A stretch of DNA of 48,118 nt, taken from NCBI GenBank assembly GCA_023266845.1, contig JAHFPH010000008.1, positions 1-48,118 on the forward strand, read 5' to 3'. The stretch's first letter is position 1. Every line of letters starts with the position of its first letter. A program made the translations under genes and the position numbers. Shown here in pieces: positions 3,286 to 34,969 of this stretch. The stretch is from Rhodospirillaceae bacterium (GTDB lineage Bacteria; Pseudomonadota; Alphaproteobacteria; JAEULC01). The notes beneath the pieces are model-generated. The model was not told the origin of the DNA and searched no databases. It was given only the letters and a program-made list of their open reading frames with translations.

Positions 3286-3360
3286 GGGCGGTTAGCTCAG
3301 CGGTAGAGCATCTCGTTTACACCGAGAGGGTCGGCGGTTCGAAACCGTCACCGCCCACCA
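3286..3360 (+). tRNA. tRNA-Val (anticodon TAC), CCA encoded
   Basis: GGGCGGT...ACCGCCCACCA acceptor stem, TCTCG TTTACAC CGAGA anticodon arm, GGTTCGAAACC T-arm. Confidence 0.97.
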
Positions 3361-3410
3361 CAGCTTGAAAGCGCCGCCAACCGCTCGGGCGGTGGCCTTA
3401 ACCAAAGCGC

Positions 3411-3530
3411 CCGTTTGCTCCAGCGCCGGAAACGGCGCGCCCGTTTGCTCCAGCGCCGGAAACGGCGCGCCTGCTTGCCCCAGCGCCGGAAACGGCGCGC
3501 CTGCTTGCCTTGACGCCGGGGGCACCCGCC
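3411..3530. repeat. 30-bp tandem repeat, three close copies plus a degenerate fourth, each of the three with a GCGCCG-GAAA-CGGCGC hairpin
   Basis: Units 3411-3440, 3441-3470, 3471-3500 (ccgtttgctccagcgccggaaacggcgcgc and variants); perfect 6-bp stems with GAAA loop at 3423-3438, 3453-3468, 3483-3498. Confidence 0.95.
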
Positions 3531-3554: not shown

Positions 3555-3631
<77 letters not shown>

Positions 3632-31104: not shown

Positions 31105-31622
31105 CCTCGGCCGCGAAGAAGAAATCGGCCAAGAACGCGCCCGCTGGAAAACGGTCCTCCGCGCGGCTCGCCGCCGTGCAGGCGCTGTATCAGCTCGATA
31201 TCAACGGCGGCAAGCCGGCCGAGGTGATCGACGAGTTCGTGCAACACCGGCTGGGGCGCGAGATCGACGGCGACCAGTACGGCGGCGTGGACGAGGCGTT
31301 GTTCCGCGCGCTGGTCGCGGGCGCCGCCACGCGGCGCGACGAGCTGGACAACATCGTCGCCGCCGTGCTGCCGGATAGCTGGCCGCTGGATCGCCTGGAA
31401 TCCATCCTGCGCCAGATCCTGCGTTGCGGCGTGTACGAGCTGGCCGAGCAGCCGACGATTCCCGCGCCGGTGGTCATCAGCGAGTATGTCGGCGTGGCCG
31501 ACGCCTTTTATGGCGGCAAGGAGCCGGGCATGGTGAACGCCGTGCTCGACCGCCTGGCGCGCGATCTCCGCCCGGGCGAGGCGCCCAATGCCAAGCGCCA
31601 AAGCGCCAAGCCGCCGGCGTAA
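31101..31622 (+). CDS. nusB: transcription antitermination factor NusB
   Basis: ARLAAVQALYQLDINGGKPAEVIDEFVQHR...RLESILRQILRCGVYELAEQPTIPAPVVISEYVGVADAFYGGKEPGMVNAVLDRLAR; GTG start overlapping the ribH stop. Confidence 0.95.
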   Translation: MTSAAKKKSAKNAPAGKRSSARLAAVQALYQLDINGGKPAEVIDEFVQHRLGREIDGDQYGGVDEALFRALVAGAATRRDELDNIVAAVLPDSWPLDRLESILRQILRCGVYELAEQPTIPAPVVISEYVGVADAFYGGKEPGMVNAVLDRLARDLRPGEAPNAKRQSAKPPA

Positions 31623-32613
31623 GACGCCCCGCCGCCGGGGCCTCGGCGAATTCGGCCGCATCGAGCGGTATTTCGCGCCGCTATCGGCGTCGTTTCCGGG
31701 CGCCCGGCATCTGACCGACGATTGCGCGACCTTCGCGCCGCCGCCGGGCGGCGTGCTGGTGGCCAAGACCGACACCATCGTCGCGGGCGTGCACACGATC
31801 GGCGACGAGCCGCCCGATCTCGTCGCCCGCAAAGCGCTGCGCGCGAACCTGTCCGACCTTGCGGCCAAGGGCGCGCAGCCCTTCGCCTATCTGCTGTCGC
31901 TCACCACGCCGCGCGATACGACCGACGCGTGGATCAAGCGCTTCGCCGACGGCCTTAGGCGCGACCAGCGCGAGTTCGGTCTGGCGTTGATCGGCGGCGA
32001 CAGCGTAACCGCGCCGAGCCCGGCCAGCGTCACGATCACGGCACTGGGCCATGCGCCGCGCGCTTCGGTGCCGCGGCGGGACGCCGCGCGGGAGGGCGAC
32101 GACATCTATGTCACCGGCACGATCGGCGACGCGGCGCTCGGCCTGCTGGCGCTGCGCGGCTGGCTGCGCGGCCTGAAGACGCGCGCCAGCGCTCATCTGG
32201 CGAACCGCTATCGCCTGCCGCGCCCGCGCGTCGCGGCGGGCCGGGCGCTGGCGCATCTCGCGCACGCCATGATGGACGTGTCGGACGGGCTGGCGGGCGA
32301 TCTTGGCCATATCTGCAAATGGTCGCGCCTCGGCGCGGTGATCGAGTGGCCGCTGGTGCCGCTGTCGCCGGCGGCGCGGGCCGCGCTCGCGCTGCGCCCG
32401 GCATTGCGCACGACCGTACTTGCCGGGGGCGACGATTACGAGCTGCTGTTCACGGCGTCGCGCTGGTCCGCCCCGCTGATCGCGACCGCCGGGCGCCGCT
32501 CAGGCGTGCGGGTGACGCGCATCGGCCGAATGGTCAAGGGGCGCGGGGTTAGCGTGATCGACGCGGCCGGGCGCGACATCACCCCGGCGCGCGGGGGGTA
32601 CGAACACCGCTAG
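31588..32613 (+). CDS. thiL: thiamine-phosphate kinase
   Basis: GEFGRIERYFAPL...LTDDCATFAPPPGGVLVAKTDTIVAGVH...MDVSDGLAGDLGHICKWSRLGAVIEWPLVPLS...LAGGDDYELLFTA. Confidence 0.95.
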   Translation: MPSAKAPSRRRKTPRRRGLGEFGRIERYFAPLSASFPGARHLTDDCATFAPPPGGVLVAKTDTIVAGVHTIGDEPPDLVARKALRANLSDLAAKGAQPFAYLLSLTTPRDTTDAWIKRFADGLRRDQREFGLALIGGDSVTAPSPASVTITALGHAPRASVPRRDAAREGDDIYVTGTIGDAALGLLALRGWLRGLKTRASAHLANRYRLPRPRVAAGRALAHLAHAMMDVSDGLAGDLGHICKWSRLGAVIEWPLVPLSPAARAALALRPALRTTVLAGGDDYELLFTASRWSAPLIATAGRRSGVRVTRIGRMVKGRGVSVIDAAGRDITPARGGYEHR

Positions 32614-32629
32614 GCGGTCTCCGGCGCCG

Positions 32630-32713
32630 ATGTCGCGCACGGGCCGCATAACTGCCGGGCGCGGGGCGGGGGTGATCGAAACGGCGGGACGTGATATCAG
32701 GCCGTCCCATGCG
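32630..32713 (+). pseudogene. diverged second copy of the thiL 3' end (about 20 codons)
   Basis: TGRITAGRGAGVIETAGRDI (32639-32698) aligns without gaps to ThiL IGRMVKGRGVSVIDAAGRDI (32521-32580); about 40/60 nt and 12/20 aa identical by manual count. Confidence 0.7.
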
Positions 32714-33770
32714 GATCGTGACCCGGGCCCAGAAAAGCATGTTGCGGCGCAAAGCAGTCGCGCTGGGCGCGGGGCTTTTCGCGCTGGTAGTCGGCTGCGG
32801 GGCTGCGCCGGCGCAAACGCGCACGCAGCTCAACGTCTACAGCACGCTCGAGGCCGACCAGCTCGCCGTCTATAAAAAGACCTTCGAGGCCGACAACCCG
32901 GATATCGAGATCGCGTGGCTGCGCGATTCGACCGGCGTCGTCACCGCGCGCATCCTGGCCGAGAACGGAAGGCCCACGGGCGATGTCGCCTGGGGTCTGG
33001 CGGTCACCAGCATGATTCTTTTGGACCAGCAGGGATTGCTGGTGCCCTACGCGCCCCAGGATCTGGCGCGCATCAAGCCGGATTTCCGCGACCGGCGCGA
33101 CCCGCCGCGCTGGGTGGGCGTGGATGCCTGGGTGGCAGCGATCTGCTTCAACACGATCGAGGCGCAGAAGCGCGGATTGAAGCCGCCGCGGAGCTGGAAG
33201 GACCTGCTTGATCCTTCCTACAAAGGACAGATCGTGATGCCGAATCCAGGCTCCTCGGGCACCGGCTTTTTCCATGTCTCGGCCTGGCTGCAGATCATGG
33301 GCGACAAGCCGGGTTGGGACTTCATGGACGGGCTCGATCGCAATATCGGCCAATACACGCATTCCGGCTCCAAGCCCTGCAAAATGGCCGCCGCCGGCGA
33401 ATACGTCCTGGGCATTTCGGCCGAGAACGCGGGCGTCCAGGCCAAGCAGCAAGGCGCGCCGGTCGAGGTGCTGCTGATGGCGGAGGGCGGCGGCTGGGAC
33501 ATGGACGCGACCGCGATCTTGAAGGGCGCGAAAAACATCGAGCATGCCAAGCGCCTGGCCGATTGGGCCGCCGGCCGCAAGGCGAACGAGATGTACAGCC
33601 GCTATCTGGCGCTGGTCGCCGTCGACGGCGTCAAGTCCGACATTCCCTTCTATCCGCCGGGCGTCGAGCAATCGATGATCAAGAACGACTTCGCCTGGGC
33701 CGCCGGCAACCGCGAGCGCATCATCCAGGAATGGCGCAAGCGCTACGACGCCAAGACCGAACGCAAGTAA
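32709..33770 (+). CDS. ABC transporter substrate-binding protein, 2-aminoethylphosphonate/iron(III)-type
   Basis: LNVYSTLEADQLAVYKKTFEADNPDIEIAWLRDSTGVVTARILAE...PRWVGVDAWVAAICFNT...IVMPNPGSSGTGFFHVSAWLQIMG...YTHSGSKPCKMAAAGEY; signal-peptide-like N-terminus. Confidence 0.85.
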   Translation: MRIVTRAQKSMLRRKAVALGAGLFALVVGCGAAPAQTRTQLNVYSTLEADQLAVYKKTFEADNPDIEIAWLRDSTGVVTARILAENGRPTGDVAWGLAVTSMILLDQQGLLVPYAPQDLARIKPDFRDRRDPPRWVGVDAWVAAICFNTIEAQKRGLKPPRSWKDLLDPSYKGQIVMPNPGSSGTGFFHVSAWLQIMGDKPGWDFMDGLDRNIGQYTHSGSKPCKMAAAGEYVLGISAENAGVQAKQQGAPVEVLLMAEGGGWDMDATAILKGAKNIEHAKRLADWAAGRKANEMYSRYLALVAVDGVKSDIPFYPPGVEQSMIKNDFAWAAGNRERIIQEWRKRYDAKTERK

Positions 33771-33778
33771 CCGGCCGC

Positions 33779-34969
33779 ATGACCGACTTCCGCACCCGCC
33801 GCAACGTGCTGCTGCTGTCCGCGTGCCAAGCGCTGATGATGACCGGCACTACGCTGGTGATGACGATCTCGGCGCTGGCGGGCCACCAGCTCGCCGAGGA
33901 TAAATCGCTCAGCACCTTGCCGCTGGCGTTGCAGTTCCTCGCCACCATGCTGGCGACGATACCGGCGTCGATGCTGATGAAGCGCATCGGGCGGCGCGAC
34001 GGCTTCACGATCGGAATCGCGATCGGCTTGGCCGGAGCGGGAACCCTGGCTTGGGGCGTGTTCACCGGCAATTTCTGGCTGTTCGCGCTGGGCGGGATTC
34101 CGCTGGGCGTGTTCAACGGCTTCGCCCAGTTCTACCGCTTCGCCGCCGCCGACACCGCCGGGCCCGAATATCGCGCCCGGGCGATCTCTTACGTGCTGGC
34201 CGGCGGCGTGGCGGCGGCGATCGCGGGACCGGAGCTCGCGCGCTGGTCCACGGACTGGTTCGCGCCGGTGTTCTTCGCCGGCGGCTTCGTCGCCATCGCG
34301 GGATTGCAGGCGGCGGCGCTGATCCTGGTGCGGTTTCTCGACATCCCGCCGCTCAGCACGCTGGAGCGCGCGGCCAGCGGCCGAGGCATGGGAGAGATCG
34401 CCCGGCAACCCGCCTTCGTCATCGCCGTGCTGGCGGGGATGATCGCCTACGCCTCGATGAATTTCGTCATGACCGCCACGCCCCTAGCGATGGCGGCCTG
34501 CGGCCATTCCTTTTCCGCCACCACGCTGGTGATGCAGGTGCATGTGCTGGGCATGTTCGTGCCGTCCTTCTTCACCGGGCATCTGATCCGGCGCTTCGGC
34601 GTGCTGCCGGTGATGCTGTCGGGCGCCGCGCTGATCGCGGGCTGCATCGCGGTCAACGCCACGGGAATTTCCGAATGGCATTTCCAGTCGGCGTTGCTGC
34701 TGCTGGGCCTGGGCTGGAATTTCCTCTATGTCGGCTCGTCGACCCTGCTGACCGAAGTGCCGGCGCCGTCCGAGCGCAACAAGGTGCAAGCCGCCAACGA
34801 CTTTCTAGTGTTCGGGCTGGTCTCGATATCGGCCTGGAGCTCGGGCGCGGTCCACGAATGGCTGGGCTGGCAGCCCGCCAACCTGATCGTGCTGCCGCTG
34901 ATCGCTTTTGCGGCTATCGCGACGCTGTGGTTTATCTGGACACGCCGCAGCTTGGCACAAGCGGCGTGA
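33779..34969 (+). CDS. MFS transporter
   Basis: MTDFRTRRNVLLLSACQALMMTGTTLVMTISALAGHQLAEDKSLSTLPLALQFLATMLATIPASMLMKRIGRRDGF. Confidence 0.88.
   Translation: MTDFRTRRNVLLLSACQALMMTGTTLVMTISALAGHQLAEDKSLSTLPLALQFLATMLATIPASMLMKRIGRRDGFTIGIAIGLAGAGTLAWGVFTGNFWLFALGGIPLGVFNGFAQFYRFAAADTAGPEYRARAISYVLAGGVAAAIAGPELARWSTDWFAPVFFAGGFVAIAGLQAAALILVRFLDIPPLSTLERAASGRGMGEIARQPAFVIAVLAGMIAYASMNFVMTATPLAMAACGHSFSATTLVMQVHVLGMFVPSFFTGHLIRRFGVLPVMLSGAALIAGCIAVNATGISEWHFQSALLLLGLGWNFLYVGSSTLLTEVPAPSERNKVQAANDFLVFGLVSISAWSSGAVHEWLGWQPANLIVLPLIAFAAIATLWFIWTRRSLAQAA

Follow-up and report, generated by a model that had tools for sequence, protein, structure and literature searches.

The window analysed here, the whole 48,118-nt stretch of contig JAHFPH010000008.1 from a Rhodospirillaceae bacterium (GenBank assembly: GCA_023266845.1, in 200 contigs), carries on its forward strand the thiamine-phosphate kinase gene thiL, which is single-copy in this genome, followed by genes for an orphan solute-binding protein (SBP) and an MFS transporter (Table 1). 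The start of the SBP gene was placed using its predicted signal peptide (MLRRKAVALGAGLFALVVGC), further in-frame starts being present at 32709 and 32691. Most of the gap between thiL and the SBP gene (79 of 125 nt) is taken up by a diverged repeat of the thiL 3′ end.

Table 1. Features of the thiL–SBP–MFS locus (positions are those of the window).
Feature	Position	Strand	Evidence or remark
thiL, thiamine-phosphate kinase, complete resident gene	31588..32613	+	TIGR01379, 284.4 bits (cut-off 184.15); AIRS and AIRS_C domains
thiL-internal segment with downstream repeat	32508..32586	+	Best ungapped match
thiL-to-SBP gap, 125 nt	32614..32738	+	Without TPP riboswitch, terminator-like hairpin with T run, or unusual folding energy
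Diverged thiL-derived fragment, not a gene	32626..32704	+	54/79 identical; ThiL profile
Orphan solute-binding protein (SBP), PhnS2 family	32739..33770	+	TIGR03261, 450.5 bits (cut-off 392.75)
MFS transporter, old thiL neighbour	33779..34969	+	MFS_1, 108.9 bits

The initial annotation of this DNA had reported a gapless 60-nt match between the end of thiL and the sequence beyond it. On recounting, positions 32521–32580 and 32639–32698, spaced by 118 nt, are identical at exactly 40 of 60 sites without gaps, and the translations given for both copies are correct. The optimal ungapped match is longer, extending over the 79-nt pair listed in Table 1 with a score of +29 (+1/–1 scoring), and a repeat finder applied to positions 31500–34000 ranked the thiL/fragment pair (48 nt at 75%) first among the direct repeats and as the strongest of the diverged ones. 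Against the observed score of 29, first-order shuffles of the gap reached maxima of 16 and 19 (500 and 1500 shuffles, respectively), and real segments of the same contig a maximum of 16 (n=1479). When 314 pairs of adjacent segments along the contig were compared, only one other high score (24) appeared, owing to an exact 24-nt direct repeat at 3407/3437 (3407–3460, 30-nt spacing), which lies between the genes for tRNA-Val (3286–3360) and tRNA-Asp (3555–3631). An HMM of the ThiL C-terminus (109 rows, with the window's genome left out) scored the fragment at 15.7 bits as a peptide and 17.8 bits over the whole frame, compared with 8.4 bits for the best of 1000 shuffled peptides and 63.7 bits for the resident thiL. 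Since all the nulls score lower and an independent ThiL profile recognizes the fragment, we conclude that the repeat is genuine and thiL-derived; the significant thiL match on which the initial annotation had made its reading depend is present by either measure. Among 111 thiL loci, including those of the sister genomes G002 and G003, a second thiL end downstream of thiL was seen in the window only, the next best score being 19. The window's order is represented by four genomes in our collection, of which G001 was left out of this comparison because its thiL sits at a contig end.

In shape, the fragment departs from an intact second tail. Its similarity to thiL breaks off at 32704, 27 nt short of where the thiL stop would fall, and the last nine thiL codons are missing, among them the stop codon that a true second tail would include (no GGYEHR-stop). 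Its frame differs from that of both thiL and the SBP gene, and it overlaps no defensible functional reading frame. Like a partial gene duplication or a thiL pseudogene fragment, it repeats part of the adjacent gene in diverged form and lacks a start, a stop and frame continuity; unlike these, it comprises just 79 nt, is bounded on both sides and is situated where relatives keep a regulatory element. It is too diverged for its breakpoints to show.

By DNA, the nearest relative of the fragment is the resident thiL (54/79 identical, bootstrap 0.67), followed by the thiL genes of G002 and of an outgroup (L024), with 50/79 each; the resident and G002 thiL genes are likewise identical at 54/79 positions. 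Seven sites set the resident apart from six or more of eight outgroups, and at four of these the fragment agrees with the outgroups (e.g., GCC, encoding Ala, as against AAG, encoding Lys, in the resident). This equal distance and these outgroup states together indicate that the split between fragment and resident is old. Third codon positions account for 13 of the 25 differences between the copies, a weak excess (p ~0.05 by approximation) that is expected anyway, given the coding constraint that acts on the resident copy. A class-wide search of 289 genomes with the gap DNA recovered no thiL donor; six DNA matches to the gap were rejected as chance coding words, as were the matches to the region within the same genome (L002–L008), which fall within unrelated genes. 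The proposal that the fragment is the tail of another thiL allele that diverged under coding selection, rather than a recent duplication, hence stands as to its thiL derivation and its age, whereas the signal of coding selection is weak and no donor was found. The better match to another lineage's thiL that the initial annotation had named as support did not emerge from the DNA comparison, where the resident leads, though with a bootstrap of just 0.67.

These sequences are compatible both with an ancient local duplicate and with a piece of a different thiL allele. If recombination had brought in the thiL tail of another lineage, without a cassette, and the fragment were what remains of it, its outgroup-like states would be readily explained, as would the modest bootstrap for the resident and the slightly better score of the fragment peptide against the L024 thiL (79) than against the resident (76). 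However, it is the resident that is nearest by DNA, the 289 genomes of the class offer no donor, and a donor tail should run past the thiL stop rather than end short of it; we accordingly regard this origin as unlikely.

The neighbouring genes bear on the further claim that the fragment marks the arrival of a binding-protein/MFS cassette, with thiL as the anchor of homology-assisted integration. Of 43 thiL loci where an MFS gene was matched (the window and G003 counted), 42 have it after thiL in the same orientation, at a thiL-to-MFS distance of 3–915 nt in 36 relatives; consequently, the MFS gene is no recent arrival. SBP orthologs follow thiL in both G002 (72% identity) and G003 (70%), in neither case with a second thiL tail. 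Among the thiL loci examined, the SBP occurs at this location in this genus only, which means that it entered at some time, and its distribution places that entry before the window's species, G002 and G003 split. With an old thiL–MFS synteny, an SBP shared by both tail-less sisters and no recombinase gene between thiL and MFS in the window, the notion that the fragment is the junction scar of a recent cassette integrated via thiL homology becomes very improbable, and the insertion-junction reading is unsupported. Of the comparison with relatives that the initial annotation had suggested, one half came out as it anticipated, the second tail being absent from them, and the other did not, the SBP being present in G002 and G003. 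The region between these genes shows other differences among the sisters. The gene order in G003 is thiL–SBP–FliL-like–MFS–TctC–TctB–TctA; an equivalent FliL-like gene follows the SBP in G002, with a sub-threshold FliL match (21.4 bits), and is absent from the corresponding position of the window (33770–33779). The thiL–SBP gap of G002 is ~900 nt long and contains an open frame (L040:2371–3040, minus strand, MPKSKITLPFETNHYTALGR..., no Pfam match), which marks this gap as a variable spot.

The corresponding gap of G003 measures 165 nt and holds a 19-bp hairpin immediately 3′ of the thiL stop (fold z=–4.73) and a TPP riboswitch (RF00059, THI element; 57.7 bits, gathering score 54.3). TPP riboswitches lie immediately upstream of SBPs of the same subfamily in five further genomes (G047, G275, G290, G291 and G180). 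In relatives, the element is found in the equivalent leader, immediately before the SBP ortholog, whereas a cmscan of positions 32400–33000 of the window gave no match to RF00059 even at E up to 10, which argues for loss rather than for a variant riboswitch. No terminator-like site was found in the window's gap, its folding is average and no better than that of shuffles, and a promoter scan of the window side returned nothing, such a scan being uninformative in a GC-rich genome. A degenerate riboswitch in this gap was considered and rejected: in local alignments to eight TPP elements, 2 of 16 comparisons gave p=0.016–0.028, which fails multiple testing. Alignment of the gap with that of G003 gave p=0.17, and no degenerate TPP element was found in G002, L150 or L151. 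G002 is without both the riboswitch and the thiL fragment. The window's genome has two TPP riboswitches elsewhere, of which the one on contig C152 precedes genes for an ABC ATPase and a permease; in G003, the corresponding riboswitch is followed by a ThiZ/ThiX/ThiY-like operon.

Two further readings of the fragment fare poorly. Although short GC-rich coding words do produce spurious DNA matches elsewhere in the genome and in relatives, a chance or compositional resemblance is scarcely credible for a score above every null with which an independent protein profile agrees and which none of the thiL-downstream regions of 110 relatives attains. Regulation of the SBP gene by the fragment, as a functional RNA or a short coding element, would suit its leader position and the 81-aa open frame (32630–32875) that passes through it; yet its folding energy is ordinary (z=–0.11), it has no Rfam match, no ribosome-binding site is evident upstream of 32630, and it is conserved nowhere else (111 thiL loci; class-wide search), making such a role highly doubtful.

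The SBP itself passes the curated cut-off of the PhnS2 family (TIGR03261, putative 2-aminoethylphosphonate binding), from which its subfamily differs in being an orphan without an adjacent ATPase or permease, in lying beside thiL and in being linked to TPP riboswitches in relatives. Apart from the window, loci of this subfamily include L041:5615–6655, L152, L153 and L181–L184, and its genes are riboswitch-preceded in six other genomes. In a tree of 36 SBPs, the TPP-preceded SBPs and that of the window form one clade (support 100/100); no TPP element was found upstream of the 29 SBPs outside it, within the up to 1.5 kb examined. Because TPP-preceded SBPs stand on both sides of the first split of the clade, the simplest history is that the subfamily ancestrally possessed the riboswitch, which would then have been lost in the window's species, in G002 and in some further members (e.g., L150 and L151). 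The same tree suggests the window's genome (G000) and G002 as possible sisters (support 90/65). The riboswitch linkage in relatives points to a thiamine-related ligand, and the SBP, whose best family model is that of a 2-aminoethylphosphonate binder, may be a binding protein for thiamine or a thiamine precursor. A paralogous SBP (50% identical) is also encoded in the window's genome (L192, G000:C152, 5983–10013), next to genes for an ABC ATPase and a permease and ~4 kb away from a TPP riboswitch, on its downstream side; the orphan SBP might use the permease of this locus. We found nothing in the literature on this SBP subfamily under TPP control.

Taken with the relatives, the fragment is probably a non-coding remnant of the thiL 3′ end, likely the organism's own, that sits where the control region of the SBP gene was lost. 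What the data show directly is the homology of the fragment, its confinement to this genome among those compared, and the lack here of a riboswitch that relatives possess; the order of events, the copying mechanism and the effect on expression are what we infer. Judging from the relatives, the ancestral SBP leader would have comprised the thiL terminator hairpin, a promoter region and the TPP riboswitch. One or a few events would have removed this control region, and a thiL-templated insertion, arising for instance by template switching during repair, may have been left in its place; alternatively, a local duplication might have been trimmed later. The literature on template switching that we found is mainly eukaryotic. 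The SBP gene would then probably be reached by read-through from nusB–thiL and no longer be switched off under TPP. The more specific version, in which a gene-end fragment replaced the riboswitch region by templated insertion and so released a thiamine-linked orphan SBP from TPP control and tied its expression to that of thiL, is a tentative proposal that we hold possible but doubtful. The case for riboswitch loss and fragment gain as a single event is limited by G002, where the riboswitch disappeared but no thiL fragment was acquired; if the window's genome and G002 are sisters (90/65), the loss may predate the fragment and the two events may be unlinked.

The feature is an evolutionary scar of an ordinary type, interesting for where it lies. 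The fragment alone is minor, and its surroundings are of more use: the occurrence of TPP riboswitches upstream of this PhnS2-type SBP in several alphaproteobacterial families, together with its adjacency to thiL in the genus, makes it a candidate component of thiamine uptake, and the window provides a natural case of riboswitch loss in which the effect on a vitamin transporter component can be asked.
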